From positions 1 to 40,589 of IMG/VR virus record IMGVR_UViG_3300032011_000032: a stretch of DNA of 40,589 nucleotides, one strand, 5' to 3'. Under the pieces are notes generated by a model. That model did not search any database. It was not told the origin of the DNA and saw only the letters and a program-made list of their open reading frames with translations. The stretch is from a virus. How positions within the stretch are numbered: the stretch's first letter is position 1; the number at the start of each line of letters is the position of its first letter. Of this stretch, positions 6,135 to 29,229 are shown one piece after another. Position numbers and translations under genes: made by a program.

Positions 6135-7100
6135 ATGGCAATATATTTTGGGAATCTAGATAGAGAACTGGCGGAAAGACAGAACGTAATCAGAGAGGAT
6201 GCTGAACGTCAGTATAGGGGTAGCCGTAATACGATGAAAGCTATTACTGGTGTAGCAGATACAGCAGCAACAGAAATACGTAGATACCAAGGGAAAAAAA
6301 GAGAGAACGAACTCCTGAAGTATAACATGGAAAGGCAGAAGAAGGATGACCAGATGAAAACCCAACGTCATAATGCGAGTATGCTAGACCATGAGTTAAG
6401 AAACATTGCTGTTATAGAAAAATCTAATGTTGATAGCTTTAGACACAAATATTATAAGGGTAGAGATCCTAAGGTGCTCAGTGCTGAACATACAACTCTA
6501 ACAAAGATGATGGATAATGATTTAATGAGGACTTCATCAGTTGATAGGATAGGTAGATATGGTTTTTTATATAGTAAGGATGCAAGGAAAGCATTAAAAC
6601 ATTATCATGAAGTAAAAAAGTTAGCGGATCAAGGTGTTTCTGGTTCTGAAAAAACTTTATTAGCTGCTCAGGCTAAGCTAGATACCTATGCTCCTCTTTC
6701 ATTTAATGATTATTTAGTTTCAGAGGAACTTGTTGATACGTCAGTGCTTCAACATAATCCTTATAGACATGCGAATTCTCTACGTAGAACCACTTTAAAA
6801 AGGCATGGTTATCCTATCTCTAATCCTGAAGAACTAACAGAAAAATTTTCAGGTAAAAGTAACAATAAAATTAAACAGACTGCTTTACAACAATTACTGG
6901 AAGAGACTACTAACAATAATAAAGTGCAGCCTAAAAAAAATAATGAATATAAGGGGGGTAGTAAAGAGGATGATGATGATTGGTCTTTTAAAGATCTTTT
7001 AACTTTTGGGGCAAGAGATAGTTTTAAAAAAAATAATAAGGAAGAAGATGTTGGTTTATCATGGGAAGAACTTAAAAATAAATTCGGATGGGGGAACTAA
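6135..7100 (+). CDS. Probable internal virion protein, charged and helical
   Basis: 321 residues, with an AGGAAATATT site before the ATG. The N-terminal 90 residues are strongly helical and very basic/acidic (LLKYNMERQKKDDQMKTQR), and the C-terminal 80 residues are Asn, Lys and Asp rich and probably disordered (KEDDDDWSFKDLL). No enzyme motif is visible. It sits directly upstream of the giant protein, and its stop codon shares bases with that gene's start (TAATG), so the two are probably translated together. It is likely a second small internal or ejection protein. The family is not recognised. Confidence 0.55.
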   Translation: MAIYFGNLDRELAERQNVIREDAERQYRGSRNTMKAITGVADTAATEIRRYQGKKRENELLKYNMERQKKDDQMKTQRHNASMLDHELRNIAVIEKSNVDSFRHKYYKGRDPKVLSAEHTTLTKMMDNDLMRTSSVDRIGRYGFLYSKDARKALKHYHEVKKLADQGVSGSEKTLLAAQAKLDTYAPLSFNDYLVSEELVDTSVLQHNPYRHANSLRRTTLKRHGYPISNPEELTEKFSGKSNNKIKQTALQQLLEETTNNNKVQPKKNNEYKGGSKEDDDDWSFKDLLTFGARDSFKKNNKEEDVGLSWEELKNKFGWGN

Positions 7101-10100
7101 TGGATCTAAGAAGAATACAATCTAACGAAGATACCAGACAGCCAGCAGAACTTAGTGGTGGTGCTGCTAAAAAATATCGGGATGAATTAAATTCTGATTG
7201 GTCTTGGGTATCGAATCCATATACAGCTTGGAGGGCTAAGCGTAGTTCCATTGAGACTGAACTATCTAAGCTAAGACCAAACTATACACAGGATGAACTT
7301 AACAAGGTATATAAAGCAGTAGGATTAGATAACAGTACTGATCCTGGGGACTTTAATAGAGAGTCAGGGTTTTTTGGTTCACTTAGTAGAGCAGGACAGA
7401 TTGCAGCCAATAGTGCAGGTACATTAGTAGATACTGCAGGCTTAAAATTTGATGACTGGACTGGTGATACTGAGGGTATGATGGAGAACCAAGAACAGCT
7501 TGACCAGCAAGCTATGGAAAACTCTATCATACAGAACTTCCAGAAGCAGAGTGGTGGGGGACAGAACAAAGTTACTCAGTTCCTCTTTGACCTTGCTGCA
7601 TCTGCACCTATCATGGCAGGCGTAATGGGTGTTGGAGCTGCTGGAGGATGGGCATTAGGTCTTGCTGGTGTACCAGCTTGGCTTGCTGGGATGTTAGGAA
7701 TGGGAGCTGCCGATGCTTTATCTGAGATGGGATTTAACTATGCTGATATAGTTACCGATCCTATGGTTCGTGAGAAGATGGAGAGAGCAGTTGGTGAGAA
7801 GCTTAATGATCAGTCTATGGAGGAGATTAGATTAGAGGTACAGAAGCGTCTCATGGACGAAGCTGATTCTAGTGCTGCTCAAGTTGGTGTTGCTAACTTT
7901 ATCAATCCATTAAACTGGCAACCAGTGTCAGGCAAATTCCAGAAGTTAATGAGGGTTGGTGAAGGCAGGATGAAAGCCATTGGGAGACAGGCATTAGGCT
8001 CTGGTGTACGTGAAATGATAGAAGAATTTGGTCAGTCAGTAGGCTCTCAGTATACTGCTGCTGAAGCAAAGATGAAAGCAATGCGTGATGCTGATGTAGA
8101 CCAGATCCCTGAGTTAGGTGTTGACTTTAAGCAGGCAGGATATGAAGCATTGATGGGTCTGACTGTAGGTGGAACAATTGGTGCTGGTGGTGGATACAAG
8201 AATTATGGTGACTGGGCTAGTGGTAGGGCTAATGTAGTTGAAGAGGGTATAGGTAGAGGTCAGGGCTTGGAAGAGAAGTTAGCTGCTAGAGGTGAGCTTC
8301 TACACAAGAAGCCTGGTGATAAGAATTTCTTAGGCAAGGGGCCGATACAATCTAATACACGTAGACTCGTTGACGCAAATGATTCTGATAAGTTTTTAAA
8401 TTGGTACTACCAAGCAGATCCAAGAGAACAGCAGATAATAGATGAAGAACTAGAGAAAATGAATTTAGGTGAGGAGCTAATGGGTGAGGTTAGTTCTCCT
8501 GAAGTCGTATCTAGTCGTAAGGAAAACGCAAAGTCTTTTATTTTTGCTAAAGAAAATATGCCCACCCTTCCCGCATTAATAGATGAGACTGTTCCTGCAG
8601 ACGCTGACATTGAGATAGCAGATGATTCACTAAAAATTATCTTTAACGATATTAGAAAAAAGCCTGAAGAATTAAGAAAACCTAGAGAGAAAGCTCTATT
8701 TGATTTAATACAAGAATATCCAAACGGAACCTACAAAGATATAGATAGGGCTGCTAGAGAAAGATTAAGGGATGAACCTAAACCAACCCAGACATCCAAG
8801 CCTAAAGAGACTGTTAGTGAAACTATAATTACACCAGTCCGAGAAAGATTAACTATTAGTCCTCCCAAGACAGAGCAGACTAAACCAGCAGAGCCACTTG
8901 AAACTAGCGAGCCTGTATCTGCAACAGTTCCACCAGATCCAGTTACTTCTGTTGATGAGGCAGTTCCAGCAGTAGAGGCAGAAGAAGTACTACCTCCTGT
9001 TATAGTCAATCAAAGTAAAGCTTCAGGTCAGATAACAGATCTTCTGAATCAGTGGCTTAAGGATGCTCCTAATGATAAAGCTAAGATATATTCTAAGAAG
9101 GAACAACATAGTAAAAACTCCAGTCGTTTAAAGAAAGAAGGTAAGAAACTTGGGTTACCATTTAATAAAAAAGATAGGTACTCATTTACTCCAGATCAAA
9201 TACTAAATGTAGCTAAAGAGATAGCTGCTCAACAAGGTATTATACCCACCAATACTGTAGTCTCTGAGAGTCTTCCGGTAGAAGTAACTCCTGAAGTTAA
9301 AGTTGAGGAGAGTGCACCCTTAATGCTAGAGAAGCCAGCTATTACTAGGAGTAAACCAGATGCCAGAAACTACGATAAGGACAACAATGAGTTACCACAG
9401 AAGATTGATGATGCAGATGTTTCTCAATTCATAAACAGAGTCGTAATAATTGAGACACCAAACAGATCAAACAAAAGGAGTTATCTCAGAGTTGAGGGTG
9501 GCCCAGAAGCACAGTCAAAGATTGATAGGGAGAAAGCAGGACTCAGAACTGGGTCTGCGTTATCACCTAGAAATACCACTACTAGTAGAGCTATCCAATT
9601 CAAGGGTATAAAGGATGGGAAGATTATATTCTATGATGTTAAAGGTGGGACAAAGACAGACTTAACTGTACCAAACCTCCCTCTCAAGAAGGTTCCCGTT
9701 GGTCAAGCAACAGCAGAGAATGCATTGAGACACCTGCAAACCTTAGAAGAAAAATCTTTTGTTGGCATTAAAGAGAAAGAGGTAGGCAAAGAAAAATTCA
9801 ATGTTGCCAACTCTTCTTATCAGACAGTCTATAGCAATCAAGAACTACAGGAGAGCGACCAAGCTGCACAGGTTAGGGAAAGACAGGATAAGATCAGTGC
9901 TCTTCAGAGAGAGATTGATACTCTTGAAGATGAGGTAGAGATAGCTACTATGCAAGCTAAGATAGATACATTAGATGAAGAGTTAGCATCTTTACTACCT
10001 GAAAAACCTGAGGAAGGGGTTAGGGTTAGAGAGGGTGAGCCTTCTGTTAAAGGTGATCCATTGAATATACGTGGTCAGATACAAAGAACTGTTAATGGGA

Positions 10101-13100
10101 AGATAAAGAACCTTAAGAAAGTTCTTGATGAGAATAACAACACCTTCCCTAAATCTAGTATAGAGCAGACATTAACTGATATTGAAAACACTTCTCCAGA
10201 AAAAATTACCTTTGATAGGAAGAGTATAGAAGTGGATGGAGATACAATATTTGTTGATACTGCACTTAGCAATATGTCTAGTGCAGAATTAGATACTATT
10301 CTATATACAAATGGGTTTAACTTGATGTCACCTAATGATATAGAAATGTCAAGTGAGCCGTATGTGAGACAAGATCAAATGAGGACACTTGAGATTGCAC
10401 TCAGTACTCCTGTTAGCCTTAAGGATAAAAAGTTTACCGATCCTATTATAGATCCAGATACTGGAGAAGATATAGCAGTTAGAGAAAGGGCTGAGAAGCA
10501 GGAGTACGAGGAGAATCTTAAAGAGAATATTACTAGAGTTAATGCACCGCCTACCGAAGATGAACCACAGTTAGGTGAAGTTATTAAGACCCAGAAGGAA
10601 GAAGCTAAGTTAGAGAAGAAGAGAGAAGAGGTTGCAGAAAAGGAAGACACTCGTGAAGCTGATGCATTGGATGAGAGTAGCCCACAGAATGAGAGTGGAG
10701 AGATTAAAAATTGGAGACAACATGCCCGTGATAAGATGGCTAAGTATAACAGCACAAAGAAAGGCAATGCTGGCATATCAACTACAGAAGCATTAGGAAA
10801 GATAAGGGCATCACTTAATGAGAATGCAAATAAAAAAAGTGATGAAGAATTATTGGAATATCTATGGGCTAAAGAGGGTAGAGGTACTAAGGGCACACCT
10901 AATGTTGTAGTAGTTGGTGGTAAGTCTGGAGTTAAGAAGCTTGGGTTTAATAATGTTGAGGTTACACTTAAAGACAAGGATAGCCCTGAAGTTTATACGC
11001 CTAAGTGGACTAGTGCAGATGCACCTTATAAGAAACTGGCTAATGATTTCATTAATGAAAAACCTGCACCTGTTAAACCTATCAAGAAACCTGTTCCAAA
11101 GAGTGCACCTGAACCCACAGTTGACGTTGAGCCAAAGGAAACTACCCAAGCACCAGCAGTAGCTTCACCTATAATCACAATAGAAGAACTTACAGAAAGA
11201 AAGGAAGGCCAGCCCGAAGATAACTTAGGAACAATTATATTGCCAGGAGATAAGGAAGGTAAATGGACAACCATCATTACCTCACCTGAAAAATCATACT
11301 ATCAGGATGTATCAGAATGGGATGCCAGAAATTATACAGGTAGTGCTGGGTTCACTAACCAGATCAAGGAAGATTTGCCGGGGTCTACTAGAGCACCAAA
11401 GAAACTAACAGAACTAATCCGTAATAGGATGAGAGATTGGTTAGTTGGTCGTGTTCAAACAGAGGAAGATATCGACTCCTTAAAGGTTGAGATGGAGGAA
11501 AGATACTGGCCTATCTTGACTAAGGATAATCGTGACACAGTTAATGAAGCCCTTATAGCAAAAGGTTCTACTCCTATACCTACTACTATATTAAAAAAAA
11601 AATCTAAAGTAAGGGAGCCAGTAACTACTGAACCTACTCCTCAACAAGAAGCCCCTATAAAACAGGGGTTCATCTCTGAGAACGCTCTCTCTGCCGAGAA
11701 GCTAATCCCCACAAAGAAACCATCCGCACCTGATGTCTGGTATGTAGATCCGTATGAGATAGAAGATATCTTTATGCCTTATGTTAAGTCCGGTCAGTTA
11801 GTAGAGTATGAATCTTTTACTGAGCAGGAATTTCCTTACGGCTTTGAGGTTGTCCGTAAAGGCAAGAAGTGGTTTATGATTAAGCTGGATATGATGGATA
11901 ATTTACCTATCAGGGTGGATAAAGAAGGTAAGTTAAATAAGATGGAAGTCCCATCCTTTATTAAGGATGTGCTTACAAGGAGGGGTAAGGAAACTTTTGG
12001 CAGGGACAAGCCTATAGATCAGAAAAGCTACAAGCTAAGCTCTACCGAACTCACTGATCCTAAACTAGCATCAGAGTTATTAGTAAACTTAAAGAGAAAA
12101 GAGAATGTATTAGATGAACTTAATGAAGCACACCATGATAAGAAGAGGATCAAGTATGCACGTATATCTATGGAGGATAAGACTGCTGTAGAAACATTCT
12201 GGCTTAATAAGGATTTTGAATCTGTTGATGAGAATGGTAATGAATTAAAAGCATTCATTACATTCAAGAGTGAGGAACTGGCACAGGAATTTGTTAATGA
12301 TATAAGGAAGAATAATCCAAGCTTTGACAAGCTAGATAAGATTAATACCCAGAATATTCTTAATGAACAGATACAAGGTGGAGCAGAAGCTGTAGTTGAT
12401 GAAGCTATAGGAGAACTAAGGAAGGAGTCACTTACACAAGGTAGTGTTGCTAACATAGAGCTGATGGAAGGGCTTGAGCAAACTGACCCAGATCTTGATG
12501 ATGTAGGTACTATTACTGGCTTTGCTGAAGACTACTGGGATTCAGGAGAAGAAGCAAAAACTATAGCAGATAATATTAAAAGGCTTAGGAATAGAAGAGT
12601 TGATGAGGATGGCATTGACCATACTCAGGATTCATTAAGCTTTGAAGAACTTCAGGGAGTAGTAGATGATTTCAAAAATACATTCCCTAGTATACCTGCT
12701 ATAGAAATAGTTGATACTCATACTGACTTGCCAATTGATGGTGATAACTCTGATACATATGGTATGTATGAAGATGGCAAAATCTACATAGTAAGATCAG
12801 CACACCCAGATACAGATGAGGTACTAAGGACTCTCTGGCATGAAGGTGTAGGACACCTTGGGCTTGAGAATTATCTTGGAGAAAATAACTTTAATAAGTT
12901 AGTGGATTTAATTGAGGGGACTCTTCCAGATGAAACCTTTAATAGTTACCTAAAGGATATTGGTGAGGGTACGCCAAAGCAAAGAGCAAGGCAGGCAGCT
13001 AAGGAATATCTGGCACACCAAGCTGATGGATTATTTCAAGATGCACCGCCAACACTATGGGATAAGATAGTAACATGGTTTAGGGAAGCTATGTATGGTA

Positions 13101-15829
13101 TGGGGGCGAGGATTACTTGGAACGAGCGTGATATTAAAATGCTGTTGCTTAGATCTGCAGACAAATTAAGAACTGGTGCACCTATAAGAGTGATTAATAA
13201 CGAGGGCACTGTAAACAGAAGGTCTTCTTCACAACAAGATAAAGCATTTAATAGAACAAGCCTTGATGAAACTAAGAGAGGTTCTTGGGATAAGATGTAT
13301 GGTGATGAGAAGACTGCTCAAGAAGGTTCTTGGTGGTATAACATTAGACGTAGCTTGGCATGGAATATAACAGATCCTTATAGCAACATTAAGGAAGATA
13401 TTGGTATGACAGAATATATGGTTGCTCGTCTTGCTAAGAGGGCAGATGGTATATTAGCTACTGTACTGAAACATTCTGGAATAGCGGTTGATAGAAGGAA
13501 TGTAAATGGTGTCCTTGTTAACGAGACTAATCTTGATACTAAAGTTAAGGGTCTCTTCCAGGCATTAAAACCTCTTGGCACTGAGACTGAGAGGAAACAG
13601 TTCTTTGCATGGATCGCCTACAACAGGGCGAGTAAGCTTAGTAAGGAAGGTAGAGAGAACAGGTTTAATGAAGAAGACATAAAGGCTGGGCTTACTTATA
13701 ATGAAGGTAAGATAAGAGATGCTACTACTGGTGCAATGTTATCAAGGAGTCTTGTTTATGATAAGGTGAGGAAGGATGTTATGAATCTAAACAATTCCAT
13801 ACTCGACTTCGGTGTTAAAATGGGGTTGCTGCAAGCTGCTGCCCGTAATAATTTTGAGCAAGATTTTTATGTACCATTCTATAGGATAATTAATGAGGAG
13901 ATAGGGGATTCAATGAAGGGTAACCCTGTTCAGTACAACTCCTTAACAGGACAAAAAACAGTTAAGAGATTGAAGGGTTCTACTAAGGGGATAGGTGATC
14001 CATTTAATAACCTGCTTCATAACTGGTTACATATAATAGATGCGTCTGTTAAAAATGATGCGGCTGTTACTACAATCAGATCAGCAGTTGATATTAAAAA
14101 CCCAATGGATTCTTCTCAGCAAATGGTTGAGAGAACATACTCTCCATCTGCGAGAACACTCCGTGTATTAGAGGGTGGTAAGGAAAAGTTATATGATATT
14201 AATAACAAATTACTTTACCAATCGTTGGCATCACTGGGGTCAGAGACTAAATTCCCAGGGCTTAAGTATCTTATTGATGCAAAGGGATTGTTCACTCAAA
14301 TTGTTACAGCCAATCCAGTTTTTAAAATAAATAATATTGTAAGAGACACAGTTTCTGCCGCAGGTACTTCTGATGTTGGGTTTAATTTTTTCAAGAATGC
14401 AGTCGGTGGATACAGGAGTATAAAGGATAGTGAAGCAAGGATGTTAGTATCAGGTGGGTACATACAGTTCGCTAACCTACGATCAGATGATCCTAATTAT
14501 GCAGAGACTATGCTAAAGAAGGAGCTGTCTTCTGGATATATGTTAAGCAATCCTGAAACAGATGAGACCTTTCTATCTGCTCTTAGTAAGGCAAAGAAGA
14601 TGGGTCGTACTGTTTGGGATTCTTATTCTAAGATAGGGGATAAATTAGAGAACGCAAACAGAGCATCGTTATTCAAGGCACTGTTAGAGGGAGGGAAGAG
14701 TCAGACTGAAGCTGCTTTTGAAGCAAGAGACTTAATGGACTTTACTCTTCACGGAGGTTCTGACTGGGTGAAGCTAGTGACATCGCTTACTCCATTCGCA
14801 AATGCAATGTTGCAAGGTAAGTATAAGTTAGGTAGGTCAATAATAAATAATCCTAAACCAGTTGCAATAGTAGCTGGCCTAGTTTTATTAGCATCAATAT
14901 TTGAGGAGATATATTTTGAGGACGATGAGGAGTACCAGAACAGACCTGATTGGGATAAAGATACTTACTGGTGGTTAAAGATACCAGGGACAAAGACTGT
15001 GTTTAAGTTACCTAAGCCGCATGAATTTTCTATGGTAGGTAACATAGCATGGAGGTCTATGAAGTTAGCTGAAGAAAAAAATCCTGACTTAGGTAAAGCT
15101 GTTTCTAGTATAGTAACCTCAATCGTATCCAGAGAGTTTGGAATTGTACCACTTCCTCAAGCGATAAAACCTATAATAGAATTAGGCATGAACAGGAACC
15201 TGTTCTTTGATAGGGATATCGAACCTAAGGGTAGTCAGGGAAGATCGCCTAGCTTAAGGTATGGACAGTATACTTCAGAAACAATGATGATGGCATCTAA
15301 GGCTCTAAGTTTTCTGCCAATAGATAAACTGAATCTTTCTCCATATCAACTTGAACATCTTGTTAATGGATATTTTGGATGGTTGGGTGAGTTGGTTCTT
15401 GGCGGGGCAGATATGGTAACACGAACAACTGGAGACTTTCCTGAGAGACCAGCTCGTGAACTGCTAGACTATCCTATGGCTAGAAGATTGTTTAAATCTT
15501 CTCCATATAGAAATACAAAGGCTAGTTCAATCTATTATGAGAGACTAAAAGAACTTGAACAGACAGTACAAGACCTAAAGTTTTATCGCAAGGTAGGTGA
15601 CTGGGAAAAATATAATGAGACATATGATAGTAAGGCAGAGATACTAAAGTATCATGGTTTTATGAGGAAGAAAAAAAGAAACATTAATGATTTTAATAAT
15701 CGCATTACTGATATTAGGAACAATAGGAAGATGAGTGGTGAGGAAAAAGAGGTAAGGTTAGATAGGATGTATCAGTTAAGGAATGGTCTTATTGATAAAA
15801 CAGTTAAGATTCTTACTGGGTTACGCTAA
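7100..15829 (+). CDS. Giant polyvalent virion/ejected protein with zincin-like motif and LPD38-like domain
   Basis: 2909 residues from ATG 7100, preferred over ATG 7088 because it overlaps the previous stop (TAATG) and has GGGGGA in front. Visible parts: a hydrophobic Ala/Gly helical segment at about 160-210; long P/E/K-rich linkers at about 500-720 and 1280-1500; a TLWHEGVGHLGLENYLG motif near residue 1914 (HExxxH, not the canonical HExxH) recalling the protease-like domain of phage polyvalent proteins; a region at about 2395-2560 with NPVFKINNIVRDT, ENANRASLFKALLEGGKS and LTPFANAMLQGKYK, which matches my memory of the LPD38 domain; and one more hydrophobic segment at about 2587-2605. Such proteins are thought to be packaged and injected with the DNA. 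It ends the rightward structural operon. The fold assignments need profile searches. Confidence 0.7.
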   Translation: MDLRRIQSNEDTRQPAELSGGAAKKYRDELNSDWSWVSNPYTAWRAKRSSIETELSKLRPNYTQDELNKVYKAVGLDNSTDPGDFNRESGFFGSLSRAGQIAANSAGTLVDTAGLKFDDWTGDTEGMMENQEQLDQQAMENSIIQNFQKQSGGGQNKVTQFLFDLAASAPIMAGVMGVGAAGGWALGLAGVPAWLAGMLGMGAADALSEMGFNYADIVTDPMVREKMERAVGEKLNDQSMEEIRLEVQKRLMDEADSSAAQVGVANFINPLNWQPVSGKFQKLMRVGEGRMKAIGRQALGSGVREMIEEFGQSVGSQYTAAEAKMKAMRDADVDQIPELGVDFKQAGYEALMGLTVGGTIGAGGGYKNYGDWASGRANVVEEGIGRGQGLEEKLAARGELLHKKPGDKNFLGKGPIQSNTRRLVDANDSDKFLNWYYQADPREQQIIDEELEKMNLGEELMGEVSSPEVVSSRKENAKSFIFAKENMPTLPALIDETVPADADIEIADDSLKIIFNDIRKKPEELRKPREKALFDLIQEYPNGTYKDIDRAARERLRDEPKPTQTSKPKETVSETIITPVRERLTISPPKTEQTKPAEPLETSEPVSATVPPDPVTSVDEAVPAVEAEEVLPPVIVNQSKASGQITDLLNQWLKDAPNDKAKIYSKKEQHSKNSSRLKKEGKKLGLPFNKKDRYSFTPDQILNVAKEIAAQQGIIPTNTVVSESLPVEVTPEVKVEESAPLMLEKPAITRSKPDARNYDKDNNELPQKIDDADVSQFINRVVIIETPNRSNKRSYLRVEGGPEAQSKIDREKAGLRTGSALSPRNTTTSRAIQFKGIKDGKIIFYDVKGGTKTDLTVPNLPLKKVPVGQATAENALRHLQTLEEKSFVGIKEKEVGKEKFNVANSSYQTVYSNQELQESDQAAQVRERQDKISALQREIDTLEDEVEIATMQAKIDTLDEELASLLPEKPEEGVRVREGEPSVKGDPLNIRGQIQRTVNGKIKNLKKVLDENNNTFPKSSIEQTLTDIENTSPEKITFDRKSIEVDGDTIFVDTALSNMSSAELDTILYTNGFNLMSPNDIEMSSEPYVRQDQMRTLEIALSTPVSLKDKKFTDPIIDPDTGEDIAVRERAEKQEYEENLKENITRVNAPPTEDEPQLGEVIKTQKEEAKLEKKREEVAEKEDTREADALDESSPQNESGEIKNWRQHARDKMAKYNSTKKGNAGISTTEALGKIRASLNENANKKSDEELLEYLWAKEGRGTKGTPNVVVVGGKSGVKKLGFNNVEVTLKDKDSPEVYTPKWTSADAPYKKLANDFINEKPAPVKPIKKPVPKSAPEPTVDVEPKETTQAPAVASPIITIEELTERKEGQPEDNLGTIILPGDKEGKWTTIITSPEKSYYQDVSEWDARNYTGSAGFTNQIKEDLPGSTRAPKKLTELIRNRMRDWLVGRVQTEEDIDSLKVEMEERYWPILTKDNRDTVNEALIAKGSTPIPTTILKKKSKVREPVTTEPTPQQEAPIKQGFISENALSAEKLIPTKKPSAPDVWYVDPYEIEDIFMPYVKSGQLVEYESFTEQEFPYGFEVVRKGKKWFMIKLDMMDNLPIRVDKEGKLNKMEVPSFIKDVLTRRGKETFGRDKPIDQKSYKLSSTELTDPKLASELLVNLKRKENVLDELNEAHHDKKRIKYARISMEDKTAVETFWLNKDFESVDENGNELKAFITFKSEELAQEFVNDIRKNNPSFDKLDKINTQNILNEQIQGGAEAVVDEAIGELRKESLTQGSVANIELMEGLEQTDPDLDDVGTITGFAEDYWDSGEEAKTIADNIKRLRNRRVDEDGIDHTQDSLSFEELQGVVDDFKNTFPSIPAIEIVDTHTDLPIDGDNSDTYGMYEDGKIYIVRSAHPDTDEVLRTLWHEGVGHLGLENYLGENNFNKLVDLIEGTLPDETFNSYLKDIGEGTPKQRARQAAKEYLAHQADGLFQDAPPTLWDKIVTWFREAMYGMGARITWNERDIKMLLLRSADKLRTGAPIRVINNEGTVNRRSSSQQDKAFNRTSLDETKRGSWDKMYGDEKTAQEGSWWYNIRRSLAWNITDPYSNIKEDIGMTEYMVARLAKRADGILATVLKHSGIAVDRRNVNGVLVNETNLDTKVKGLFQALKPLGTETERKQFFAWIAYNRASKLSKEGRENRFNEEDIKAGLTYNEGKIRDATTGAMLSRSLVYDKVRKDVMNLNNSILDFGVKMGLLQAAARNNFEQDFYVPFYRIINEEIGDSMKGNPVQYNSLTGQKTVKRLKGSTKGIGDPFNNLLHNWLHIIDASVKNDAAVTTIRSAVDIKNPMDSSQQMVERTYSPSARTLRVLEGGKEKLYDINNKLLYQSLASLGSETKFPGLKYLIDAKGLFTQIVTANPVFKINNIVRDTVSAAGTSDVGFNFFKNAVGGYRSIKDSEARMLVSGGYIQFANLRSDDPNYAETMLKKELSSGYMLSNPETDETFLSALSKAKKMGRTVWDSYSKIGDKLENANRASLFKALLEGGKSQTEAAFEARDLMDFTLHGGSDWVKLVTSLTPFANAMLQGKYKLGRSIINNPKPVAIVAGLVLLASIFEEIYFEDDEEYQNRPDWDKDTYWWLKIPGTKTVFKLPKPHEFSMVGNIAWRSMKLAEEKNPDLGKAVSSIVTSIVSREFGIVPLPQAIKPIIELGMNRNLFFDRDIEPKGSQGRSPSLRYGQYTSETMMMASKALSFLPIDKLNLSPYQLEHLVNGYFGWLGELVLGGADMVTRTTGDFPERPARELLDYPMARRLFKSSPYRNTKASSIYYERLKELEQTVQDLKFYRKVGDWEKYNETYDSKAEILKYHGFMRKKKRNINDFNNRITDIRNNRKMSGEEKEVRLDRMYQLRNGLIDKTVKILTGLR

Positions 15830-16876: not shown

Positions 16877-17524
16877 CTATGAACATCCACTTGTCTCGCC
16901 ACATGATACGCACTTGAGACATGCACCATTCCTGACCAGTGTGAACTGACTACAGTTTGTACATGCTTCTCCTTCGTAGCCTTTCATGCGAGCTTCTGCC
17001 AGTTTATCTTCCTGGCTTTTGTCTTCAGAAACTAATGCTTTCTGAATTGTTTTTAATTCTTCTTTAGTTAGTTCATCGTCATCATCTTCTTCGTCAGGTT
17101 TATCAATGTACTCATGTATTTCCTCTACTGGTTTAGGAGGAGGGACGGGGAGTATATGAGCAAGGTCATCCCGCCCACTATACTCAACTGCCAACTCCCT
17201 AAATATGTAGTCTATAATTGAGGAAGACATCTTAATAGATGGACTTCCCTGAACCATACCTGAAGGTTCAAACTTGGTAAATGTAAATGCATTTACAAAC
17301 TCATCTAGTGGTACTCCATACTGCAACCCCAGTGATACTGCGATTGCAAAGTTATTCATAAGACATCTGAACGCTGCTCCTTCTTTGTGCATATCAATAA
17401 AGATCTCTCCTAAAGAACCATCCTCATACTCTCCAGTGCGGAGATATACCTTGTGCCCACCAATCCTAGACTTCTGTGTAAATCCACATCTTCTATCTGG
17501 TAGGTCTCTTCTTAATGTTTTCAT
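16877..17524 (-). CDS. Stand-alone C-terminal (TSCPD + Cys tail) domain of class II ribonucleotide reductase NrdJ
   Basis: 215 residues. Residues about 5-125 match the C-terminal region of alphaproteobacterial B12-dependent ribonucleotide reductase as I remember it ([71 protein letters not shown]). An acidic linker of about 60 residues follows, then a Cys-rich end: [28 protein letters not shown] (CxxC-x10-CxxCxxC-x5-C). In full-length class II enzymes the C-terminal cysteines relay electrons to the active site. No catalytic barrel, cobalamin-binding region or other RNR gene is present. Ten bases separate it from the helicase gene; AAAGG serves as ribosome-binding site. It could supply or interfere with the redox tail of host NrdJ. 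Family confident, role inferred. Confidence 0.8.
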
Positions 17525-20913: not shown

Positions 20914-21798
20914 CTAGTTAATTCTCAACACATTTCTTTTGTCTAAACTGCATATGCCCTTGATACTCTGCACTTCATCACCCATGCTGGCACGTAGACT
21001 GTTACCAGCCTTGCGTTGTATCTGCTCCAGCCTCTTGATTTCTTTACGAGTCTCGGTATAGATGTTTCTGTTATCTATATCTACATCAGAAGCAACTGCA
21101 GTCTTACGTCCAGTAGAATACTGAGCCTTTAAACTTTTGGATGTTGATGCGTGACCATCAGGCTCAGGCATTTGTTCGCTCTTAAAGAGTTCAATAAATG
21201 CTGCTTCCTTTAACATCAACTCCCTTGTATTATCCAACCTCTCTTCTCTACTTACCTCAAGAAGTATTAGTGGTTGGTGTATATGGTGGAAGATTGCATA
21301 TACAACTCCTCCAAATGGTTGCCCTGGATTAGGACACCCCTTAAATTGTGTGAAGCTTAGGTAGTGATCTCCTTGTGACATGTAGTCAGGTGGAATCTCA
21401 CCAGCCTTCGCTTGTTCTATCTTAGAGTAGGATGAAGTAGTCTTCACCTCCACTATATATCCATTGTCTGCCACTCCATCTAAGTCAGCAATCGCCCAAG
21501 GATATTCCTCATTCAACAGCATACAGTTTGGCTTAAAGATATTATTGCCAGTCATTTCGTATACTTCATTGAGAGCAACTGGTTCTAGTGAGTGACCACG
21601 CTGAACATTTAATTTGTCTGATAAATCAGGGAACTCTTCTAGTCCACGCTTCCTCCTCATAAGAGTGTAGCCTGATGTGAAAGAGTTAGTCCCATCAATA
21701 CTACTTATCTCACTACCTCCAAGATATGGGCCGAGAGAATATCTAGGTCTGATTGTATCCCAGTCCTCCTTAGTAAAGTCGTGCAGTATTATACTCAT
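20914..21798 (-). CDS. YqaJ/lambda-type 5'-3' exonuclease
   Basis: 294 residues. The PD-(D/E)XK nuclease core is visible: GGSEISSIDG near residue 28, RGHSLEPVALNEVYEMTG near 65 (conserved GxxxEP), YPWAIADLDGVADNGYIVEVKTTSS at about 98-122 (catalytic D and ExK), then SQGDHYLSFTQ (the conserved Q-containing helix). The C-terminal 100 residues are helical. It resects dsDNA ends to give 3' tails for the annealase encoded next. The start is well marked by AAGGAG. Downstream spacing to the annealase is 42 bases and AT-rich. Confidence 0.82.
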   Translation of the reverse strand: MSIILHDFTKEDWDTIRPRYSLGPYLGGSEISSIDGTNSFTSGYTLMRRKRGLEEFPDLSDKLNVQRGHSLEPVALNEVYEMTGNNIFKPNCMLLNEEYPWAIADLDGVADNGYIVEVKTTSSYSKIEQAKAGEIPPDYMSQGDHYLSFTQFKGCPNPGQPFGGVVYAIFHHIHQPLILLEVSREERLDNTRELMLKEAAFIELFKSEQMPEPDGHASTSKSLKAQYSTGRKTAVASDVDIDNRNIYTETRKEIKRLEQIQRKAGNSLRASMGDEVQSIKGICSLDKRNVLRIN

Positions 21799-22064: not shown

Positions 22065-23525
22065 TTACACTGCTATTTGTGTGAATTTACCATAGCTTGG
22101 TAACCCAGGCCAACCTGAAAGACATTCTTCAGGTTGTGTTGACATCCATAAGACAGGATGATCTGGTTCTTCAGGATAATCATCCTCCATGTCAGTCATA
22201 ACTATATAGCAGCTTGGATTTATATCACCCTTCAACTCAAGTTCCATTGCCTTATTGAATGCACCTGTAAAGTTAGTGCCTCCAGATACGAGACGTTTAT
22301 ACTCAGGCATTGTACCCTCACCGACTAACTCCACATGTTCATCTGGTATATCGGAGTATCCTGCAAAGTGTATCACTGCTACATTACATAGTGGTATATC
22401 TCCATCCTCAAACAGTTCATTTATATTAGTAAAGACTGCTTGCACTTCCTCCTCACTCATCGAACCTGACTCATCTATCATAATTACTATGTCATCAAGT
22501 CTCTTGCCACTCTTACTTGGCATCCAGAACCCATGATGTAACCACTTATTAGATGGCTTCATCCAGTTCTTCTTTGTCTTAGATTTGAGGGTGAGGTATT
22601 CTTTAAGAGCATCCTCCCACGAAACAGTCTCTGTATTATTCAGTTCGATTATCTCGTTGAGATTAAACCCTCCCTTGCCTGAAGTCTTACTGCTTGCGAA
22701 CTCTGCCCTTGCATTAGACTCGATGAACATATCCTCTAGTTCCTCTGCTGATACACCTATACTAAGGGATGCTAGAGTACCTGAGTATTCATCAGGTTCA
22801 TCTTCAGAATCAGTTCCCTTCCAGTTACTATCACCTTCAGGTTTATAATCATCTACTAAACCGATCTTAATTTTCTCAAGCTCTTCCTTGAATTGTTCAG
22901 CTATTAAATCCTCTGCCCTCTGAGGTGGTGGATCATCACCTGTATCAGGGTTTGGCTTAGCATTATTCCCAGACTCGTCAAGGGATTTCTTCTTACCCTT
23001 AGGCTTCACCTTACTATGGAGTAAGTCATAGACCATTTCCGTAGTCATCTTTGCTCCATCATATCTAGGATCAAGTAACCCTTCTGGGATACCATCAACA
23101 CTGGTTGGCATCGCTCCGATCCCCATCTTAACAAGGATACTATTGATACAGTAATCTCCTGCTATATTCCAGAGCCTTTTATCACGACCATTCCTTCTTG
23201 TTGAATGGCACATAAGATTGTGCATAACCTCATGTGCTATGATAAAAACATTATTAAGTATAGACATGGACAGGACAGCATCAGGATTGTACCCAATCAC
23301 TATACCATTAGTGTAATACTTACAGTCATAACGCCAGTCAGCTACAGGTCGTAGTCTCTCCTTTAATATAACCCCTAGTGTTGGGTTTGTTTGAAGGAGA
23401 TACAGTACTGATTCCTCATACTTTTTCCTCGCCCTTATTAATGTGAACTCATCAGGCTCATAACTCTGATCTTTCTCACCTAAATTATGAGGGTCGAGTA
23501 TATTAACACCTGCATTTAGTGTCAT
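22065..23525 (-). CDS. Metallopeptidase-VWA protein (CobT/DUF2201-like)
   Basis: 486 residues in two parts. The N-terminal part has a canonical zincin motif at about 96-100, in IIAHEVMHNLMCHSTRRNG (HEVMH), followed by WNIAGDYCINSILVKMG, as in the putative metallopeptidases fused to VWA-like domains (DUF2201 type). A charged, acidic linker (about 190-300) follows. The C-terminal VWA-like domain has an intact MIDAS start near residue 350: DDIVIMIDESGSMSEEE (DxSxS), then SGGTNFTGAFNKAMEL and CYIVMTDMEDDYP. VWA proteins commonly work with MoxR-type AAA+ ATPases, and one is encoded about 2.6 kb upstream in the same leftward block. The substrate is unknown. The AAGGAGG site is strong. Confidence 0.78.
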   Translation of the reverse strand: MTLNAGVNILDPHNLGEKDQSYEPDEFTLIRARKKYEESVLYLLQTNPTLGVILKERLRPVADWRYDCKYYTNGIVIGYNPDAVLSMSILNNVFIIAHEVMHNLMCHSTRRNGRDKRLWNIAGDYCINSILVKMGIGAMPTSVDGIPEGLLDPRYDGAKMTTEMVYDLLHSKVKPKGKKKSLDESGNNAKPNPDTGDDPPPQRAEDLIAEQFKEELEKIKIGLVDDYKPEGDSNWKGTDSEDEPDEYSGTLASLSIGVSAEELEDMFIESNARAEFASSKTSGKGGFNLNEIIELNNTETVSWEDALKEYLTLKSKTKKNWMKPSNKWLHHGFWMPSKSGKRLDDIVIMIDESGSMSEEEVQAVFTNINELFEDGDIPLCNVAVIHFAGYSDIPDEHVELVGEGTMPEYKRLVSGGTNFTGAFNKAMELELKGDINPSCYIVMTDMEDDYPEEPDHPVLWMSTQPEECLSGWPGLPSYGKFTQIAV

Positions 23526-23538
23526 AGTTCCTCCTTAG

Positions 23539-24453
23539 TTAAAGTGTTTCTGCATAAGCATCCAAGTTGTTGGCTATATCTGTTGCTGATTTCTCAACAA
23601 CCTCTTTAGCATCAGGGTTTTTAAGTACCTCCTTATCTCTAAGGCCATCGCATGTAACTTCTTCAACAACTCTATTAGCTAAGTCTCTTAGCGTTGAGTC
23701 GTTAGTAAAGTCAATTGCAGGTAATGAGTCTGCATATTTATACAGCTCATCAAGTGTTGAGTTATGTATCACCTTGTCTGTCTTAAGAGAGTTGGTAATA
23801 TGTGTAAGCTTATTACTTAAGGCATCAATTAATTTTAGAACTGATTGCTTTTGTATTACCTTAAGTCTTTCGTCATAGGTTTCAACCAAGTCTTTCTGTG
23901 TAGCAGGATCAAGTGAACACCTAAAGTCAGTGCCCTTAGGTATAGGATCTATTGTCACAGTCATACTGATTGATTGATATACTTCCTCATTGCTTGGATA
24001 GTCATTAGGATTGAAGAGATTACCCAAGTCATTTTGTGAGGCAGTCTTTGCTAAGGGGTATGTCTTATGTGCAAACTCATAAGCCATATGATCAAGTGCT
24101 GCTCTTCTCTCAGCAATCATTGTATTGTATGGCTTCATATGTTTTGCACCCCCTGAGAAAATATTAGTAGACATGATGTCAGTGTTCTTAGTCCACCTCA
24201 TCCCTCCTGTATACTCGTTATGTATCTTACGAGTCTCACGCTGATAGCTTGCGATAGGATCATACAAATTCTTTGGTATGATATTCTTACTGGATTTAGT
24301 TGTCTGACATCCAGTGTTTCGGAATGATTCTTGTGCATTATAATGGTTCGCTAAAGCCTGACCAGCATCGTCTATCTTTCTTGATAAGCCGAAGTTAGTT
24401 AAGTTCATTTGTACTATCACGGCTCCCGTAATAATTTCTAGTTCATCACTCAT
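23539..24453 (-). CDS. Conserved phage protein of unknown function (possibly DUF3150-like)
   Basis: 304 residues, mixed then helical. Features: IVQMNLTNFGLSRKID near the start, a central stretch with GGMRWTKNTDIMSTNIFSGG, a middle beta-rich patch (SISMTVTIDPIPKGTDF), and a long helical C-terminal half. From memory it resembles the DUF3150 group that accompanies MoxR/VWA genes in phages; this needs checking. It lies directly upstream of the VWA-metallopeptidase gene with a 13-base gap and is coupled to the preceding 39-residue gene (TAATG). It is probably a partner of the AAA+/VWA pair. Confidence 0.6.
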   Translation of the reverse strand: MSDELEIITGAVIVQMNLTNFGLSRKIDDAGQALANHYNAQESFRNTGCQTTKSSKNIIPKNLYDPIASYQRETRKIHNEYTGGMRWTKNTDIMSTNIFSGGAKHMKPYNTMIAERRAALDHMAYEFAHKTYPLAKTASQNDLGNLFNPNDYPSNEEVYQSISMTVTIDPIPKGTDFRCSLDPATQKDLVETYDERLKVIQKQSVLKLIDALSNKLTHITNSLKTDKVIHNSTLDELYKYADSLPAIDFTNDSTLRDLANRVVEEVTCDGLRDKEVLKNPDAKEVVEKSATDIANNLDAYAETL

Positions 24454-24572
24454 TAATCCTCCGTGTAATATTCAGGGTTATCAGGATCTTTATTATCCTG
24501 TTTCTTTTTCTCAAATCTTTCATAGTAATCGTCTTCATTTGTGAACCAACTAGGTTCTGTGTATTCATTCAT
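24453..24572 (-). CDS. 39-residue acidic small protein
   Basis: A short gene supported by signals on both ends: the start overlaps the previous stop (ATGA) with GGAGG upstream, and its stop overlaps the next start (TAATG). The product is very hydrophilic with many acidic and aromatic residues (MNEYTEPSWFTNEDDYYERF, then PDNPEYYTED). Its final codons also carry the ribosome-binding site of the next gene. No function is known; it could be a small inhibitor or adaptor. Confidence 0.65.
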   Translation of the reverse strand: MNEYTEPSWFTNEDDYYERFEKKKQDNKDPDNPEYYTED

Positions 24573-24784
24573 GTTTCCTCCTTGATCTTCCAGTATTCTA
24601 GCCGACATTCCCATACTGACCTGTTGTTAGTACTGAATGTATTTGATGCTATCCAACTGGCTAATTCATGTCTGTGATTCGGACTATCCACACCCTTGTC
24701 AAAGCTTATAAGTTTGTTATAAAGTTTGTCAGATACATCTAGCTTAATGGTCGAATGTATAAGTACCTCGTGTTTCTTCTTCAT
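24569..24784 (-). CDS. Small hypothetical protein
   Basis: 71 residues with a basic start (MKKKHEVLIHSTIKLDVSD) and mixed helix/strand content. No motif is recognised. It starts with an ATGA overlap with the zinc-ribbon gene and ends EET, because the last three codons and stop are the GAGGAAACATGA signal that starts the next gene. It is part of the tightly packed row of small genes between the AAA+ ATPase and the 304-residue protein. Confidence 0.6.
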   Translation of the reverse strand: MKKKHEVLIHSTIKLDVSDKLYNKLISFDKGVDSPNHRHELASWIASNTFSTNNRSVWECRLEYWKIKEET

Positions 24785-24990
24785 GTTTCCTCCTCATCTG
24801 GGTAGCAGTCATCGCAGACTATCATGCCTTCGTAACCACCATAATGAATTGATAGTTCACCGCACATTTCACACTTGGTTTCCTGACATTCTGGACACTT
24901 CCATCCATCCTCCCAGCCAAGCCTGTCTATAAATCTACCGCTTCCAAGTGCTGTGCTGTTACCACACTCTACACATGGGTCTACTGTCAT
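24781..24990 (-). CDS. Double zinc-ribbon small protein
   Basis: 69 residues with four CxxC pairs: CVEC (residue 6), CPEC (32), CEMC (40) and CDDC (59). These would allow two zinc sites, in the order of two treble-clef or ribbon units. The rest is acidic (PDEEET end). Such proteins in phages often bind nucleic acids or host proteins. The start and stop are both in the repeated GAGGAAACATGA junction. It is next to another, single-ribbon protein. Confidence 0.7.
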   Translation of the reverse strand: MTVDPCVECGNSTALGSGRFIDRLGWEDGWKCPECQETKCEMCGELSIHYGGYEGMIVCDDCYPDEEET

Positions 24991-25187
24991 GTTTCCTCCT
25001 TCTCCTTTTCTATTACGTCTGAAAACTCATCAAAAACTAAGTTATACCACTCTGTCCCTTCTGCATCACAATCGGCACAGGAAAATAAATAGCCTATTGA
25101 ATTGTCTGCCCAGTCATAATCACCATAGTCTAAAGCATAGCTATTACATACAGGGCATTGCCCTGCTGTTTCAGTTTTATTTGTCAT
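24987..25187 (-). CDS. Zinc-ribbon small protein
   Basis: 66 residues with CPVC at residue 11 and CADC at 36, spaced by an aromatic/acidic loop (YGDYDWADNSIGYLFS), as expected of a single zinc ribbon. The C-terminal half is acidic and helical (VFDEFSDVIEKEKEET). It overlaps the preceding gene (ATGA) and the following one through the same junction sequence. It is probably a small regulator or host-protein binder; the target is unknown. Confidence 0.68.
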   Translation of the reverse strand: MTNKTETAGQCPVCNSYALDYGDYDWADNSIGYLFSCADCDAEGTEWYNLVFDEFSDVIEKEKEET

Positions 25188-25447
25188 GCTTCCTCCTCCA
25201 TCTTTGTGTTTATAATTGTGATCGCAAACCTTAATGCTTCAATCCAACCTAGATCTACACCTTCAGGCTCATCAGCTTTCATTCCATCGTCAGATTCTTC
25301 TATACTTAAGATGACTTTATTAAATTCATCTTTAAGTTCCTGACAGCAACAGTCATTGTCACGGATAACACGATAGCTCTGTGTCTGTGCATCCCACTGT
25401 CTGATTCCTCCTGCCATTATTCTCCTGACATTTTCCTGATCATTCAT
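25184..25447 (-). CDS. Small hypothetical protein with CCCQ cluster
   Basis: 87 residues. There is a run of cysteines (DNDCCCQELKDEF) near residue 33, an acidic middle, and a helical C-terminus (IEALRFAITIINTKMEEEA). No family is recognised. It overlaps the previous gene at ATGAATGA and the next at ATGA; AAGGAGG precedes the start. The gene ends in EEA through the variant GAGGAAGCATGA junction. Confidence 0.6.
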   Translation of the reverse strand: MNDQENVRRIMAGGIRQWDAQTQSYRVIRDNDCCCQELKDEFNKVILSIEESDDGMKADEPEGVDLGWIEALRFAITIINTKMEEEA

Positions 25448-25721
25448 TATCCTCCTTGTAGTGAGGGTTTACCCTATACCATATCCATCCCATATTCTTA
25501 GAGACTGCTCTGTATATTCCAAGATAGTCTGTATCCTTACCCATAACCCAATCTCTTTTATACATTTCACTTACCTTCTTATTCAGCAGGTATAGGTTTA
25601 CTGGTAGTTTAATCTTATTAAATTTACTAGCATTGTATGTCGATAGAGATTTCTTAATTGCTCCATCTATTGTTACCGACCACCTCCATTGCAGAGGTGA
25701 TACGGCTATGTATATTGCCAT
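25440..25721 (-). CDS. Small hypothetical protein
   Basis: 93 residues, aromatic and basic, without signal or membrane segment (MAIYIAVSPLQWRWSVTIDG, then KRDWVMGKDTDYLGIYRAVSK). The content suggests a small mixed alpha/beta fold with many tryptophans and tyrosines. It is coupled to its neighbours, overlapping the next gene by 8 bases, and begins 9 bases after the previous stop with AAGGAG nearby. The function is unknown. Confidence 0.6.
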   Translation of the reverse strand: MAIYIAVSPLQWRWSVTIDGAIKKSLSTYNASKFNKIKLPVNLYLLNKKVSEMYKRDWVMGKDTDYLGIYRAVSKNMGWIWYRVNPHYKEDNE

Positions 25722-26128: not shown

Positions 26129-27295
26129 TTAAGCTGCGATTAGAGTGTGATACTCAGTTGATTTCTCACATGCTTCAAGAACTTCTTTGTTCCCTGCATT
26201 TTCAATGAGAGCCTGAGTAGTTTTAGGTAGGTCAGGTGATATCTCCTTACCTAACATCTTAATGTAAGCAAGGATATTATCAGCAGTTTTAATGTTGAAA
26301 TGTCTAGGATTAGTAAGTGCCCCGACTGATATCCATGTAACCCCAAGACTCATAGGATCATTAGGATCAGGGAGTTTAGCCTTAGCACCACGCTTCTTTA
26401 CATCCTCAATATCAACCAGCTTATCAAGCTGATCTATCAGTCCAGTAAGACTGGCACCAACACCATCACCAACAAGACCACAGACTAAAGCCCGTCTAAT
26501 CTTCTTGATGTTAGGCATCTTGCCCCAGACTTTATCATCCCTCTCGATTACAGTAAGGACACGGCTTACATCATGCCATGATCTTGGTGTAGCATGAGCA
26601 TACTCACCCTCACGAAACCTCTGCTTATCGAAGTTCCTCCATGTAGGATTATCATCTCTATCCTGGTGCTTAATGAAGAAGATTATTCTTCCATCAAGTT
26701 CCAGTCCAGAGTCTCTGCCTACAGTATCAGGTAGTGAGTCCCAGTCAGGTAGATGAGAGCCATCATTCTGGAATCCATTCTTAGATATCCTAGCCCACTC
26801 ATCCAGATCATTATCGACACCAATATGACACCAACGATTAGCCATCGGGCCACTCATCCTACTGTTCATTGCCTCATCCTTAGACCTGTTGGATGCACCA
26901 ACAAATGTAGTATATGGTGACAGTTCATGGTCTCCGACTCGACCCTCAGTTAGCCATTGCATCACACCCTTCTGGGCATCAGTCTCACCAAGCAGGAACT
27001 CATCGAAGAACACCATCAGTCTCTTGTTGAGATCCGTAGGTAGATATTCAGGTGGACAATACTTTGTAAGTCCATCCTTAACTTCCATCAACCCACGAAT
27101 ATCTATACCCTCGATCTGGGATAGTCTCATATCAACCAGCCCATAATCAGGATCAGACTTCTGGATGTGTCTATGTAGTTCCTTGACAAGAGATGTCTTC
27201 CCAACACCCTGATGAGAGTGCATGAAGAGTGGGATACCTGCTTTACTGCAAATCAATATCGCTGTCTGTGTCTCCTGTGTAGTCAATGTCTTCAT
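26129..27295 (-). CDS. MoxR-like AAA+ ATPase
   Basis: 388 residues, taking the ATG at 27295 because AAGGAG lies 7 bases before it; an upstream ATG at 27322 has no site. Walker A is HSHQGVGKTSLVKEL (K33), then VDMRLSQIEGIDIRGLMEV, Walker B LMVFFDEFLLGE near residue 100, and a later TTFVGASNRSKDEAM sensor-1 region. This is the MoxR/CobS type of AAA+ ATPase, which remodels partner complexes together with VWA-domain proteins. The VWA partner candidate is at 22065-23525. A 51-codon frame overlaps its start. A promoter-like pair lies upstream at 27567-27595. Confidence 0.8.
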   Translation of the reverse strand: MKTLTTQETQTAILICSKAGIPLFMHSHQGVGKTSLVKELHRHIQKSDPDYGLVDMRLSQIEGIDIRGLMEVKDGLTKYCPPEYLPTDLNKRLMVFFDEFLLGETDAQKGVMQWLTEGRVGDHELSPYTTFVGASNRSKDEAMNSRMSGPMANRWCHIGVDNDLDEWARISKNGFQNDGSHLPDWDSLPDTVGRDSGLELDGRIIFFIKHQDRDDNPTWRNFDKQRFREGEYAHATPRSWHDVSRVLTVIERDDKVWGKMPNIKKIRRALVCGLVGDGVGASLTGLIDQLDKLVDIEDVKKRGAKAKLPDPNDPMSLGVTWISVGALTNPRHFNIKTADNILAYIKMLGKEISPDLPKTTQALIENAGNKEVLEACEKSTEYHTLIAA

Positions 27296-27398
27296 TATCT
27301 TTCTCCTTATTAAGGTTATCATTGTAGTTAGAGAGAGTACTCCCTATAAGATTAAGGAAGATGTTAAACCACCTCTCTTCTGTTAGTTCATGTCTCAT
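27243..27398 (-). CDS. Possible 51-residue protein overlapping the AAA+ start
   Basis: An out-of-frame reading that begins at ATG 27398 just after the 24-residue gene and ends inside the AAA+ gene. The first part is helical (MRHELTEERWFNIFLNLIGS) and the end strongly acidic (EDIDYTGDTDSDIDLQ). It has no clear ribosome-binding site, and about one third of it lies over the AAA+ coding region, so it may be chance. It would carry ribosomes to the AAA+ start. Confidence 0.35.
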   Translation of the reverse strand: MRHELTEERWFNIFLNLIGSTLSNYNDNLNKEKDNEDIDYTGDTDSDIDLQ

Positions 27399-28715: not shown

Positions 28716-28994
28716 CTAATTGATGAACCTCTTAGGCATTGGGCCAGGTTTAAGCTGGGAAGCAAACCTGTCATAGTCAACTCCCTTTTCATCAAGCAAG
28801 TAACGTAAGGCAAGTTTGATCCCTTCAACCTTACCTAATTCCCATTGAAGTTTTTGCTCAGCTTCCTCACCGAACAAAGTATTACCACAGGTATCATACA
28901 TCTGGAGATCAGACTTTATATCCCTAAGGATACTAGTCATCTCCTTGCCTATCTTATACTCTACTCCTGTTTTATCTATATTTTTCCACTTCAT
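28716..28994 (-). CDS. Small hypothetical protein, helical
   Basis: 92 residues, mostly helical, with a basic start (MKWKNIDKTGVEYKIGKEM), a long helix (EEAEQKLQWELGKVEGIKLALRY, residues about 43-65) and a basic end (PGPMPKRFIN). No family is recognised. It overlaps the previous gene through a junction (AAGGAGAATATATGA) that is also found at the start of that gene. It precedes the long non-coding region. Confidence 0.6.
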   Translation of the reverse strand: MKWKNIDKTGVEYKIGKEMTSILRDIKSDLQMYDTCGNTLFGEEAEQKLQWELGKVEGIKLALRYLLDEKGVDYDRFASQLKPGPMPKRFIN

Positions 28995-29011
28995 ATATTC
29001 TCCTTGTTAGG
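28991..29011 (-). repeat. 21-bp junction repeat, copy 1
   Basis: Identical over all 21 bases to 29209-29229. It encodes the C-terminal PNKENI and stop of one gene and, at the same time, the AAGGAG ribosome-binding site and ATG of the next. Confidence 0.75.
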
Positions 29012-29212
29012 GTTATCACTCCACATTGGGCATGCCATTTCGTGAGCATCTTGGATTGCTATCTCAGCATTATTAGCTGAAATCCAGCAATCAAAAGAAC
29101 TAGTGTAACCAAAGTTCTTCCATGCTAACTTAGCTAGTTCTGCATGGCAATCCTCACACTTTACGACAGACACCCTATCTAGAGGTGGTAAAGTCGGATC
29201 GAATTCAGTCAT
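28991..29212 (-). CDS. Small protein with CxxC pair
   Basis: 73 residues. It has a CEDC pair near residue 15 and single Cys at 42 and 60. The C-terminus is PNKENI, identical to that of the preceding gene because both are encoded by the same 21-base junction that starts the following gene. It may bind one zinc ion, but the fourth ligand is uncertain. The function is unknown. Confidence 0.6.
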   Translation of the reverse strand: MTEFDPTLPPLDRVSVVKCEDCHAELAKLAWKNFGYTSSFDCWISANNAEIAIQDAHEMACPMWSDNPNKENI

Positions 29213-29229
29213 ATATTCTCCTTGTTAGG
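29209..29229 (-). repeat. 21-bp junction repeat, copy 2
   Basis: This is the second exact copy of the 28991-29011 sequence, 218 bases away, at the junction of the 70- and 73-residue genes. The flanking bases differ immediately on both sides. Confidence 0.75.

Follow-up and report, generated by a model that had tools for sequence, protein, structure and literature searches.

The window (the whole stretch of DNA analysed, 40,589 nucleotides of IMG/VR record IMGVR_UViG_3300032011_000032; 60% AT) comes from an uncultured bacterial virus. The phage is podovirus-like: its gene products include a head-tail adaptor, an internal virion protein, a major head protein, a DnaB-type helicase, an SSB and a RecE/YqaJ-type exonuclease. 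In a leftward early-type operon, between the genes for a MoxR-like ATPase (26129-27322) and a metallopeptidase/VWA protein (22065-23525), the same 13-letter DNA joins four adjacent small genes, ending one gene and starting the next. The ATPase and metallopeptidase/VWA genes, both on the minus strand, enclose this small-gene array together with a gene for a 304-aa unknown protein, and the set is kept in the relative L006 (see below).

All genes of the array are on the minus strand. In the direction of transcription, a left flanking gene of 93 aa (25440-25721) is followed by small genes for an 87-aa protein (25184-25447), a 66-aa Cys-pair (zinc-ribbon-like) protein (24987-25187), a 69-aa Cys-rich protein (24781-24990) and a 71-aa protein (24569-24784), and by a right flanking gene of 39 aa (24453-24572). 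A family search of the small proteins gave one weak PHROG match, that of the 69-aa protein to phrog_35699, a family of unknown function; the 87-, 66- and 71-aa proteins were assigned to no family. By codon usage the linked minus-strand ORFs outscored the overlapping antisense ORFs, the 71-aa gene having the weakest coding signal (z 1.5).

A motif scan for GGAGGAARCATGA located copies at 24569, 24781, 24987 and 25184, all on the minus strand, and none elsewhere in the window. The copy at 25184-25196 is the single-change form GGAGGAAGCATGA, which closes the 87-aa gene and provides the Shine-Dalgarno (SD) and start of the 66-aa gene; the other three are exact copies of GGAGGAAACATGA, at 24987-24999 (start of the 69-aa gene), 24781-24793 (start of the 71-aa gene) and 24569-24581 (start of the 39-aa gene). 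Every junction is a -4 overlap, in which ...GAG GAA ACA TGA closes one gene and ATGA opens the next, and the linked proteins end, in the same order, in EEA, EET, EET and EET. The copies are 197, 206 and 212 bp apart. None of 100 dinucleotide-preserving shuffles reached four copies (expected number, 0). These results confirm the preliminary description of the locus, which reported four copies of one start cassette (one with a single change) about 200 bp apart, each providing both the final codons and stop of a gene and the RBS and start of its successor. It had also taken the linked proteins to be unrelated, and paralogy among them was indeed undetectable: the best pair (24987/24781) gave a BLASTP E value of 7.8, and 1% of shuffles reached its score. 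Part of the 13-mer is ordinary, namely a strong SD (GGAGG) and the ATGA overlap; the excess is the identical spacer. A search for an RNA element matched neither an Rfam family nor a tRNA.

A second repeated junction, different from the first, was found in the same phage by in-register matching of gene starts. It is a 21-bp stop/start joint, CCTAACAAGGAGAATATATGA, with two minus-strand copies 218 bp apart (29209-29229 and 28991-29011), and both proteins upstream of the copies end in PNKENI. All 378 pairs of gene starts on the minus strand of the window were compared; the longest in-register runs ending at ATGA measured 21, 15, 14 and 14 nt, and every one of them belonged to neighbours or next-neighbours.

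Two related contigs were compared with the window. The 51-kb contig L005 carries the same four junction copies; its identity to the window over the 8 kb compared is 99.96%, too high for any evolutionary contrast. The nearest comparable relative is L006, a 34-kb contig whose ATPase is 80% identical. There the left flanking gene (88 aa, 11193-11459) is followed directly by the right flanking gene (41 aa, 11466-11591): exactly the four junction-bounded genes are missing. L006 also lacks two other genes upstream. The 87-, 66- and 71-aa genes are absent at this position; the 69-aa gene has a homologue away from the array, at 9262-9411 (reported alignment identity 51%). Gene content thus changes at the junctions, as the preliminary description had expected of relatives, in the sole informative one; an unchanged gene content with junctions no better conserved than other ribosome-binding sites, named there as the finding that would speak against it, was not what L006 presented. 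As only one relative is informative, the comparison does not polarise gain against loss of the block.

The motif GGAGGAARCATGA was not found in the L006 record with up to one mismatch allowed, and the junction at the array site is AGGAGAATATGG, with the SD AGGAGAAT, which differs from GGAGGAAAC. The array has in common with the lambdoid boundary sequences described below a gene content that differs between relatives at the junction; a boundary sequence would also stand at the junction of the partner genome, and in L006 the 13-mer does not. With a junction other than GGAGGAAAC in L006, homologous recombination at this 13-mer is a putative step. No close cultured relatives were found. Bacterial genomes searched with an alignment of two proteins (metallopeptidase/VWA) yielded no confirmed relative, the A1 profile gave no further relatives, and the A3 profile gave one extra fragment (L141), which ends short of the junctions.

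Junctions of orthologous genes have diverged. Over the 9 nt before the ATG, window and L006 matched at a mean of 4.2 positions and none of 17 orthologous starts was fully identical, whereas the copies of the first array are identical among themselves at 8-9 of 9 positions. The spacer therefore drifts fast, and the array copies are probably of recent common source. Such divergence makes it unlikely that the spacer is under strict selection. L006 has a repeat of its own, GGAGAAGTA, with four copies within 1.6 kb (8445-10012), each just before a gene start; elsewhere in the 21-kb locus the coding strand has none. The distance from GGAGAAGTA to the ATG differs among the four genes. These genes are not insertions; window orthologues exist, with other junctions, and some local junction similarity therefore arises without gene insertion.

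The two-copy array pattern was found in six stretches of viral contigs, the contig of L005 among them, and in none of 85k bacterial and archaeal genomes. A longer form of the joint, CCGCCGAAGGAGGAAACATGA, is present in L010 and L013 and, with these, in 32 viral contigs altogether (L010, L013 and L245-L274; locus GC 0.33-0.67), where it joins 16 upstream families to 25 downstream families. The proteins that end in PPKEET at CCGCCGAAGGAGGAAACATGA include a DUF551 protein, an HNH endonuclease and a PGDYG-like protein. In the locus of the L013 array a DUF551 protein ends in PEPPKEDKP, and for this reason the joint may derive from the 3' end of a DUF551 gene, the C-terminus of that protein being its possible source. 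In L009 (5484-6366) genes are partly duplicated, with copies that begin and end at GGAGGAAACATGA; neighbours share either their first 20 residues (heads MKTVRDILIAELKRM) or their last residues (tails IYVPMEET). One ORF of L009 passes through a cassette in a different reading frame, which resembles a fusion.

The sharing of start junctions was then measured in an IMG/VR sample of GGAGGNNNNATGA pairs at distances of 197-227 bp, in which the spacer was free to vary; 120 loci were listed, a sample and not a census. Among the matches listed, 43 of 146 non-paralogous pairs of neighbouring GGAGGNNNNATGA junctions had identical spacers, against 2.1% of GC-matched cross-phage pairs, so that neighbour identity was about 14 times the GC-matched background; the per-locus mean was 0.26 (bootstrap interval 0.18-0.34). 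Identity within one genome fell with distance among these matches, from 28/125 at 0.3-1 kb to 10/62 at 1-2 kb, 4/76 at 2-4 kb and 1/56 beyond 4 kb (adjacent versus more than 3 kb, Fisher p ~1e-9, pairs within a locus being counted as independent). With such a decay, a preference for a single spacer throughout the genome is rejected. The excess recurred in a second SD register, AAGGAGNNNNNATGA (15/81 versus 0.7%). Identity ends at the edges of the SD and of ATGA, and the flanks are not shared. Neighbours with identical joints were no more similar in protein sequence than other neighbours (paralogy z 0.51 and 0.50). Spacers vary from phage to phage (CCGC, CATC, TTGT, AAGC and others) and among junctions of one genome that lie more than about 3-4 kb apart, and at least three identical joints per array were present in 9 of the 120 loci listed. 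The survey shows local sharing of start junctions to be common in the phages sampled. The array of L096 had no match among cultured phages.

In our judgement the 13-mer is probably an SD/stop-start junction whose local, near-identical copies come from the turnover of small accessory genes within a single operon: as such genes are gained, lost and swapped, the junction would be carried along with them or remain behind. The moving unit would be [ATG...gene...GAGGAAACA-TGA]. Each junction combines the final codons and stop of a gene with the SD, spacer and ATG of its successor, so that any event with its two endpoints in junctions, be it an exchange, a duplication or a deletion, would preserve all reading frames and translation signals. 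Termination-reinitiation at ATGA is standard knowledge. The gene-moving step would be recombination within the short joint, through a phage annealing/exonuclease system or by microhomology, and the YqaJ/RecE-like recombination exonuclease encoded at 20914-21798 (minus strand) is a candidate actor. The array may have grown in the window lineage rather than shrunk in L006. The observed basis consists of the identical copies, the junction-bounded block absent in a relative, the faster divergence of orthologous junctions, the general local sharing that decays with distance and the occurrence of one longer joint beside many unrelated families in a variety of phages.

The preliminary description had seen in the cassette a linker that would let small genes be inserted, swapped or duplicated by short homologous recombination while expression is kept. 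The change of gene content in L006 and the local sharing of junctions support the linker, whereas short homologous recombination is not borne out by L006, where the junction is different. Short homologies recombined poorly in the single published test located: in a phi80/Dlp12 assay with nin homology whose longest perfect match was 11 bp, fewer than 1e-8 recombinants per phage were obtained (PMC3945230). Given this yield, the exchange would have to be an infrequent event or depend on a longer stretch of temporary homology.

Other explanations of the repeated joint were weighed against the same evidence. The anti-SD gives no prediction of these spacers, which counts against the view that the joint is a functional motif for translation initiation or regulation (the proposal made for Start-Associated Sequences, SAS), with copies that selection would keep alike, for instance for coupled re-initiation or the binding of a phage translational regulator. 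The exact overlap with SD and start, the end of identity at the SD and ATGA edges and the service of one operon by all copies would all fit such a motif, but spacers that vary between phages, and over distances of more than about 3-4 kb in one genome, and that are not kept at orthologous junctions make it unlikely. The joint could instead be the last trace of tandem gene duplication, the coding parts having diverged fast. The partial tandem duplicates of L009, bounded by the same joint, and the Cys pairs of two window proteins agree with this; a fast-drifting spacer is, however, not expected to outlive the coding sequence, and with paralogy undetected in the window and identical-spacer neighbours of the survey no more similar than others we regard duplication as distinctly unlikely. 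Paralogy of the linked proteins was itself rejected by the window comparisons and by the survey.

Local gene conversion or short-patch homogenisation would make junctions alike while the genes stay put, and GGAGAAGTA, common to four orthologous, non-inserted genes of L006, could be read in this way. Its offsets to the ATG differ, though, and gene content does change at the window array, so that this process is a very unlikely source of the copies. That an ordinary strong RBS and ATGA overlap with an A-rich spacer should be repeated by chance is scarcely credible, common as GGAGG and ATGA are in a genome of this AT content: the survey excess over the GC-matched background and the shuffles, none of which gave four copies, reject it. 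Turnover of small genes between shared junctions is the reading that we retain. It is quite possible, if short of probable, that start junctions of tailed phages generally behave as locally shared recombination linkers, a regional SD-spacer-ATGA 'adapter' being placed on neighbouring unrelated small genes, decaying over 2-4 kb and allowing adapter-to-adapter turnover with expression preserved.

Several known systems resemble the array in part. Lambdoid 'boundary sequences' at module junctions have been proposed as sites of homologous exchange (Susskind & Botstein 1978; Clark et al. 2001, both cited in PMC3029335). In the lambdoid nin region we found 24 identical nt before ninG (P22) and roi (HK97, HK620), and GAGGCCGCATGAC before ninH after three different genes, ninG (lambda), ninY (P22) and rus (ST64T). 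As in the window, a short shared sequence lies at the module junction and nin swaps fall right at start junctions; in the window, however, it is the SD/stop-start overlap that forms the boundary, and it recurs at four successive junctions of one genome. The window feature is best read as a probable RBS form of the boundary-sequence idea.

In mycobacteriophages, gain or loss by recombination has been proposed for repeat-flanked single genes, namely Island3 gene 68 (PMC3029335) and Corndog gene 14, with its 17-bp direct repeat (PMC4351075). There too a small gene is present or absent between two short repeats at gene ends, but these are single genes with repeats of 17 to about 50 bp and not an array with a 13-bp SD joint. 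SAS, described in Cluster K mycobacteriophages and Cluster EF Microbacterium phages (PMC3203893, PMC7302621), share with the window a 13-bp repeat in the RBS position before unrelated genes. They are, however, dispersed over the non-structural half, mostly in intergenic gaps of more than 50 bp, are often accompanied by an upstream repeat and are conserved between subclusters, whereas the window motif occupies only four consecutive -4 overlaps, is absent from L006 and has diverged orthologous junctions. The promoter-early stem-loop (PeSL) cassettes of T4-type phages are short repeated regulatory sequences between small genes for which gene shuffling has been proposed (cited in PMC4503421). Their repeats, proposed to drive shuffling of small genes, recall the window, but they place a promoter and stem-loop between genes, whereas the window joint is an SD/start within a 4-nt coding overlap with no intergenic space.

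Such joints look like sites where viruses add, lose and swap small genes with expression intact. It is debated whether illegitimate or short-homology recombination lets phages take up and discard small accessory genes by the dozen while polycistronic expression stays intact. The identity of neighbouring junction spacers, its decay over kilobases and its dependence on junction type form a measurable signal that makes this debate testable over all phage genomes and that flags gene clusters in active turnover, with accessory, defence and counter-defence genes. No paper reporting a population-level spacer-identity signal was found in the open-access literature searched, and this signal may be the part that a specialist finds new.

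Two further features of the window were recorded outside the array. On the plus strand, 7088-15829 is an ORF of 2913 aa with an LPD38 large polyvalent protein domain close to its C-terminus. On the minus strand, 16877-17524 encodes a 215-aa protein that matches the C-terminal part, and not the whole, of ribonucleotide reductase large-subunit profiles.
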